Shown here one piece after another: positions 7,152-9,209 of a stretch of DNA of 30,026 nucleotides. Made by a program: the position numbers and the translations under genes. The notes beneath the pieces were generated by a model. The model was given only the letters and a program-made list of their open reading frames with translations, had not been told where the DNA came from and made no database searches. This DNA is from a virus: the IMG/VR virus record IMGVR_UViG_3300040801_001133, positions 64,001 to 94,026 of that record, one strand, 5' to 3'. The stretch's first letter is position 1, and each line of letters begins with the position of its first letter.

Positions 7152-7155
7152 AGAG

Positions 7156-7534
7156 TGGAGGTGGGCGGAGTTGAACCGCCGTGTTCCCTACTAATTTATA
7201 AATATCTTAATGTGAAATTGGGGACGTACCAGAGGTACAATCCTTCCACCACTTACTCTTGAGAAAAGTAAGAAAACCTCGGTTATTTTTAAGTCTTAAC
7301 CTAAACTATGACTTTATCTCAAATCCTGTTGCCAAGACTAGGCCACGGCCCGAAGGCCAGTGAAACTAGTTTGAGATACTCCGCTATACATCTGTACGAT
7401 GGTAGCACTTTTACGTCCTGAGACGTTCTTATTGTTGCCAATTAGAAAGATGATTAGTTATTTCTAGCTACTAAAATCATAAGCCGATTCACAATATTTA
7501 TCTACTAATAGAGAGTCGAAGCCATTTCACCCCC
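7156..7534 (-). ncRNA. ssrA: tmRNA (ssrA-type), phage encoded
   Basis: 379 nt. The two ends form the tRNA-like domain: 5' GGGGGTG pairs with 3' CACCTCC plus discriminator A. The 5' end continues AAATGGCTTCGAC, the usual tmRNA start, and the T-arm is GGCGG-TTCAACT-CCGCC. A long helix H2 joins the two ends (GATAAATATTGTGAAT against ATTTCACATTAAGATATTTATA). After it comes a clear pseudoknot PK1: stem ATGATT..AGT/ACTAATCAT, with loop TAGAAA pairing to downstream TTTCTA. Further hairpins follow, including one with a UUCG tetraloop inside a 9-bp stem (TATCTCAAA/TTTGAGATA). tmRNA with SmpB rescues stalled ribosomes. The tag frame could not be fixed: no ALAA-like ending is visible. One candidate open frame after PK1 ends in LRAVA and a UAG at about 7339. 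No CCA encoded. Confidence 0.88.
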
Positions 7535-7540
7535 TTAAAG

Positions 7541-7614
7541 TACACCGTGCAAGATTCAAACTTGCGACCTGAGAATTAGAAGTTCCCTGCTCTATTCAGC
7601 TAAGCTAACGGTGC
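7541..7614 (-). tRNA. tRNA-Arg(UCU)
   Basis: 74 nt. Acceptor GCACCGT/ACGGTGT with a G1-U72 wobble, anticodon arm GGGAA-CTTCTAA-TTCTC, T-arm GCAAG-TTTGAAT-CTTGC. Discriminator A then C; no CCA. It reads AGA, a common codon in this AT-rich genome. Confidence 0.92.
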
Positions 7615-9137: not shown

Positions 9138-9209
9138 TACGGAAAGCAGGACTCGAACCTTGAACGACAGAACCAAAATCTGTTGTGTTGCCAATTACAC
9201 CATACCCCA
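9138..9209 (-). tRNA. tRNA-Gln(UUG), degenerate acceptor and T-stem
   Basis: Anticodon arm ACAGA-TTTTGGT-TCTGT and D-arm GTGT..ACAC are intact. The T-stem CAAGG/CCTGC has two mismatches, and the acceptor TGGGGTA against TTTCCGT has about three. It is either a decaying gene, a tRNA repaired or edited after transcription, or host-dependent. U72-A73-C74 as in several other tRNAs here. Confidence 0.7.

Follow-up and report, generated by a model that had tools for sequence, protein, structure and literature searches.

A crAss-like phage carries a predicted one-piece tmRNA with a long tag, one of many such tags among Bacteroidota phages

What does a phage do with a tmRNA of its own, and what is to be made of one whose tag looks unlike those of Bacteroidota hosts? 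In general, tmRNA is charged with alanine, works with SmpB, lets translation resume on its tag, allows release and sends the tagged chain to proteolysis, as outlined in two articles (PMC4383926, PMC4131195). One survey found tmRNA in about 2% of phage genomes (PMC9004378), and a 2025 database holds 79 unique phage tmRNA sequences, its paper naming 10 aa as the most frequent tag length overall (PMC11915505). Their purpose is debated, with rescue, degradation of host proteins and inhibition all guessed. The window analysed here is a stretch of 30,026 nucleotides (bases 64,001-94,026 of the 94,026-base virus contig IMGVR_UViG_3300040801_001133). From its letters alone, an original prediction had proposed a complete tmRNA gene in a crAss-like phage, with an unusual or absent ALAA-type tag.

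ARAGORN reported a one-piece tmRNA at 7155-7534 on the minus strand, with the tag GNNKNVSGRKSATIVQMYSGVSQTSFTGLRAVA followed by a stop. The Rfam covariance model, which the original prediction had named as its check, gave a significant full-length match: RF00023 aligned to 7153-7534 on the minus strand over model positions 1-374 with 61.7 bits and an E-value of 5.3e-22, against a gathering score of 47 bits. The capsid encoded by the same contig is of crAss type (Pfam PF23898, Crass_capsid, E 3.4e-131; PHROG 11589, E 7.7e-162), and its portal and terminase match head-and-packaging PHROGs. Both the tmRNA and its crAss-like carrier were thus recovered, and the predicted extent of 7156-7534 holds exactly as far as the discriminator base. 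Past the acceptor the sequence reads ACUC, so no CCA end is encoded. The features of the locus are as follows, G013 being a related phage described below.

7540-7614, minus strand: tRNA-Arg(TCT), ending 5 nt upstream of the tmRNA (ARAGORN)
7156-7534, minus strand: one-piece tmRNA gene up to the discriminator base (ARAGORN, Rfam, sequence)
7528-7534, minus strand: acceptor stem, 5' strand GGGGGUG, pairing with the 3' strand, G3.U70 included
7494-7514, minus strand: helix H2, 5' strand (UCUCUAUUAGU, then AUAAAUAU; sequence and helix score)
7443-7480, minus strand: candidate PK1, with stem 1 AUGAUU/AAUCAU and stem 2 UAGAAA/UUUCUA (helix score)
7338-7439, minus strand: tag frame GNNKNVSGRKSATIVQMYSGVSQTSFTGLRAVA with its UAG stop (ARAGORN, sequence, comparison with G013)
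7341-7355, minus strand: conserved tag end LRAVA, CUU CGG GCC GUG GCC (comparison with G013)
7315-7378, minus strand: H5-like stem UAUCUCAAA/UUUGAGAUA, around the last part of the tag frame and its stop (seen in sequence, unscored)
7185-7205, minus strand: helix H2, 3' strand (AUAUUUAU, then AUUAGUAGGGA; sequence and helix score)
7157-7163, minus strand: acceptor stem, 3' strand CACCUCC, paired with the 5' strand

The closest named phages, at a capsid identity of 61%, are Flavobacterium psychrophilum phages FpV4, Fpv1, FPSV-D24 and others. The contig has a G+C content of 33% and uses the standard code; a capsid scan of GTDB contigs identified no host, and a scan with p228 returned no relatives. 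All ten tRNAs called by ARAGORN in the contig lie beside the tmRNA, and tRNA-Arg and the tmRNA are probably carried on one transcript. A weak eleventh tRNA (31 bits with Rfam, no ARAGORN call) is located at 9138-9209 of the window on the minus strand. The tmRNA keeps its side relative to p228 in this phage, G005, G008, FpV4 and G013, and does so relative to the helicase wherever that gene is in view. In FpV4 (NC_041872) it sits in a 2.3-kb unannotated stretch at 81,438-83,768 (L123).

The RNA resembles the one-piece tmRNAs of Bacteroidota (RF00023), with an alanine-type acceptor carrying G3.U70, a T arm, no anticodon arm, H2, a candidate PK1 before a GGC resume codon and a stop inside an H5-like stem. 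The acceptor ends, H2, PK1 and a downstream hairpin can be drawn where they had been proposed, and we additionally scored H2 and PK1. H2 consists of an 11-bp run, equalled in about 3% of shuffles, and a further 8 bp; across phage tmRNAs, H2 was better than shuffles at the 5% level in 55 of 73. PK1 (6+6 bp) is weak alone in this molecule because 20% of same-segment shuffles reach it, while none of 40 did so for the relative G005; generic detection of PK1 was too weak to rely on (5/73 at 5%). The pairs G1-C72, G2-C71 and G3.U70 are present in 72/72 phage tmRNAs, a count partly imposed by the scan itself. Acceptor pairs 4-7 show compensatory changes among phages, and the T stem covaries likewise. 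Loss of acceptor pairing in related phages, which would have spoken against a tmRNA, was therefore not what we saw. Overall, it is not the helices of this molecule that rule out chance, but the model E-value together with compensatory changes among relatives and the conservation of the tag. A DNA search of phages with this tmRNA returned only a 28-bp match in the T arm.

The tag comprises 33 codons (7439-7341), opening on the GGC resume codon (7439-7437) after PK1 and closing at a UAG stop (7340-7338). It is the frame that had been put forward as about 30 residues ending LRAVA; the tag is not the shorter candidate, which follows H2 and stops at a UAG within the PK1 loop. The tag begins at nucleotide 96 both here and in hosts, so that the resume codon is similarly placed. 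In G013, an 84-kb relative whose capsid is 63% identical, a 525-nt tmRNA went unreported by ARAGORN and was matched only partially by Rfam (24.7 bits). Its tag, GNSKTISMNSYSSLRAVA followed by UAG, shares with ours a GN-x-K start and an LRAVA-UAG end. In G013 this end is written UUA AGA GCU GUA GCU UAG, and all five LRAVA codons are synonymously different. Since the lengths differ (33 versus 18), only the two tag ends are conserved between the phages. This comparison indicates that the tag frame is not accidental, its ends being conserved at the protein level. The tag is hence unusual, as first supposed, but an ALAA-type tag is not simply absent: the end is A-V-A, and it is conserved. PHROG and Pfam searches with four tags, this phage's included, gave no match, and neither did a PDB search with a consensus-type tag. 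A copy of the tag from a phage protein was considered and rejected, as tblastn against FpV4, Calle_1 and G000 returned, among the matches listed, tmRNA tags and chance-size matches only.

We take the tag to end at UAG because long genes of this phage do so. UAG terminates 12/72 of its long gene models, including that of an 1830-aa protein, and reading through it adds almost no coding sequence. In two relatives, G005 and G004 (L097, L098), a tRNA with a CUA anticodon is located close to the tmRNA and the tag ends in UAG-UAA; G005 uses UAG as a stop. Recoding of UAG, which these two phages brought to mind, was rejected because UAG stops are as frequent as normal in the gene models of G000, G005 and G008, and read-through adds little to their length.

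Having established the tag, we compared it with those of other phages and of hosts. RF00023 scored above cut-off in 9 records among 50 relatives fetched by capsid and in 10 among 43 fetched by DNA polymerase. Related and unrelated Bacteroidota phages together yielded about 74 distinct tmRNAs and 63 distinct tags, the tags being obtained by hand reading of all complete phage tmRNA molecules. Tag length ranges from 18 to 50 aa with a median of 35, and the present tag, at 33 aa, falls within the group of at least 18 aa. The last three residues of the 63 tags were VAA (39), LAA (5), EAA (4), MAA (4), IAA (3), AAA (2) and TAA (1), giving 58/63 with an -AA end; the others were AVA (2, this phage and G013), MVA (2) and VGV (1). 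Among Bacteroidota host genomes, 114/118 had a tmRNA and 110/113 ARAGORN calls gave a tag of 9-10 aa; three of the odd-looking calls were misreadings of normal tags, and no tag of the long phage type was found in the 113 genomes. In contrast to the host type (GENNYALAA or ADDYSYAMAA), the present tmRNA has 33 rather than 9-10 residues, ends in RAVA rather than ALAA or AMAA and reaches 61.7 rather than 105-200 bits with RF00023. Other phage tmRNAs, where matched, also scored below hosts (98.8 bits at best). Several close relatives, for example G002, had no Rfam match, so the tmRNA is either dispensable or at times undetected. What is odd about this tag is not a missing ALAA, as originally framed, but its length and its conservation across a phage family. 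Kinship of the phage, synteny, the RNA and the length of the tag place it in the long-tag group, as a divergent branch together with G013. The tag of FpV4, for comparison, reads GNTNNSVVSLEDNAQVEANMNMAFSLIREDVAVAA. One 105-kb contig (G174, IMGVR_UViG_3300025853_000041) has two tmRNAs with different tags (L437, L445) and two DNA polymerase genes, and is possibly two related genomes joined in assembly.

Many phage tags contain an internal motif, Q[IV]xANMxxVxx[LI]L, or in a narrower form Q[IV][EQK]ANMxxVxx[LI]L. It was first noticed in tags found via the RNA model alone, and it is absent from this phage's tag and from those of G013, G004/G005, G007, G008, G029, G181 and G187. We scanned 2.9 million IMG/VR contigs with a DNA pattern for the peptide that holds no RNA term. 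This gave 95 readable places, of which 94 lie in short tag-like frames and one (L503) is a chance match; the motif by itself thus serves as a detector. The same pattern had no match in 395 Bacteroidota genomes. Among 44 motif-bearing records, RF00023 matched at E < 1e-6 in 37. A crAss-type capsid was found in 30/44, seven of them strong, and in none of the other 14, some of which are fragments; because of these 14, the long-tag family appears to cross phage families. The motif also occurs in 29 F. psychrophilum phage records, at sites without a listed feature or in records without annotation, and in the cultured phages FpV4, phi14:2, phi38:1, phi40:1 and Calle_1. In the Cellulophaga phages phi38:1 and phi40:1 it lies under a "hypothetical protein", and in Calle_1 under an annotated tmRNA. 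The tag of the crAss-like phi14:2 is GNDTDNTQLKANMTVVHNILNGSDALIGSSVQKLAMVA with an MVA end, which ARAGORN shortens to GSSVQKLAMVA. Overall, long-tag tmRNAs are mostly unannotated in the named records checked, and gene finders under-report them, as ARAGORN misses or shortens several tags. The hydrophobic moment of the motif exceeds that of 96% of shuffles for one version and of 68-94% for others, which is only suggestive of an amphipathic helix. The pN/pS of the motif, 0.36, carries a downward bias, since the pattern used to fetch most sequences holds the residues constant while synonymous positions may vary; unbiased evidence of conservation comes from the LRAVA comparison and from motif-bearing tags first found through RF00023.

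We consider it likely that the phage encodes a working tmRNA whose tag is of the degradation type and whose extra length serves a further purpose. The most likely course is trans-translation with host SmpB, plus an additional function of the tag. A search for SmpB in 12 phage records found none, and the host protein would therefore be needed. Once charged by host alanyl-tRNA synthetase, the phage tmRNA would be carried by host SmpB and EF-Tu to ribosomes that have stalled, in the infected cell, on mRNAs that are broken or lack a stop codon. Translation would resume at GGC, adding alanine and the 33-residue tag ending LRAVA before release at UAG, and ribosomes would be freed for the phage while host mRNA is destroyed. 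The tag would remain a degradation signal via its hydrophobic C-terminus, its extra length having another use, for example in binding an adaptor or aiding unfolding. A further purpose is argued for because phages of the group keep long tags where hosts keep 9-10 residues. The presence of long tags in many related viruses hints at a benefit to the virus that goes further than the marking of waste, and our best guess is that a partner reads the tag body in addition to the C-terminal degron. Weighing against this reading are the missing motif, the RNA score well below that of hosts and the close relatives with no Rfam match.

How far degradation itself applies depends on the tag end. Two terminal alanines are the usual proteolysis signal of the tag, and their retention in most relatives argues against that signal having been generally lost. 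Tags that end LVA do undergo degradation in E. coli, and degradation via the LRAVA end of this phage's tag is likewise still possible. An alternative that we regard as rather unlikely is that rescue works while the AVA end and the long body keep chains from the host protease or redirect them. Such a role would fit the AVA end in this phage and G013, the MVA or VGV end of three other distinct tags (MVA in phi14:2) and an internal region conserved in many phages beyond the need of a bare degron; yet the two terminal alanines are kept in 58/63 distinct tags, and AVA need not protect, given the fate of the LVA tag.

Two further explanations were weighed. SmpB-dependent phage decoys have a precedent (PMC4131195; PMC11915505), and the absence of SmpB from the phages tested would suit an RNA acting mainly as a sink for SmpB or host rescue, with host trans-translation blocked as a result; this has been proposed for the tRNA-like fragment of mycobacteriophage DS6A. 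A decoy could do without a tag frame, yet the frames here have stayed open, with ends conserved at the protein level, and we hold this reading very improbable. The low RNA score and a tag without the motif could instead mark a host tmRNA acquired with the tRNA array and now decaying, its odd tag being drift. Against decay speak synteny, an LRAVA end conserved as protein in G013 (capsid identity 63%), compensated base pairs and the lack of any such host tag in 113 genomes; this reading, to which we give hardly any credence, is already largely refuted.

Returning to a working tmRNA with a tag of added function, we tentatively extend it, at somewhat short of even confidence, to several Bacteroidota phage families (crAss-like, Pervagoviridae and others). 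These may have evolved a new tag of 25-50 residues, in which a partner would read the motif segment and not just -AA, taking tagged proteins to a phage-chosen fate; this phage and G013 would form a branch with another body and the LRAVA end. The partner could be a host or phage adaptor, protease or chaperone, and the motif segment is possibly amphipathic. Tags three to five times the host length and conserved at the protein level make the purpose of phage tmRNA testable, since members sit in laboratory-grown phages (F. psychrophilum FpV4, C. baltica phi14:2 and phi38:1).

Phage tmRNAs, one crAss-like case included, are already on record, while the long conserved tag family looks undescribed: we found no description of it in the open-access literature. 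Mycobacteriophages Bxz1, Wildcat and others and Bacillus phage G also have complete tmRNAs (PMC4131195), with other hosts and tags; that of phage G is AKLNITNNELQVA (ARAGORN, 13 aa). The tmRNA of OM43 phage Melnitz (PMC9004378), proposed to maintain or hijack the host translation machinery, is two-piece, permuted and under a glutamine riboswitch, whereas the present one is one-piece. Cellulophaga phage Calle_1 has an annotated tmRNA of the same long-tag family, with the tag GNNTNAVNAQIEANMEAVNAILNLEVAVGV; the paper describing it merely counts one tmRNA (PMC8776804). The phage tmRNA of DS6A consists of the tRNA-like domain alone; it lacks a tag frame and acts as an inhibitor of host tmRNA, whereas the 33-aa frame found here is long and conserved. 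Permuted forms occur in two crAss-like gut phages (subfamily Oafivirinae), so both tmRNA types, one-piece and permuted, are present among crAss-like phages. In cr272_1 (NC_055903, 193-562; L634) the tmRNA is annotated and has a 15-aa tag, GNINVVDYTGLQEAA, with 40 bits for RF04321, below the cut-off of 47; in cr7_1 (NC_055895, near 20,628; L633) the tag is DNVNNIVDYTNVA and RF04321 gives 66.4 bits. An unannotated permuted tmRNA with the tag ANDDVYVVALAA (ARAGORN) was also seen at 1438-1763 of Stenotrophomonas phage BUCTxx99 (OR529408; L005).
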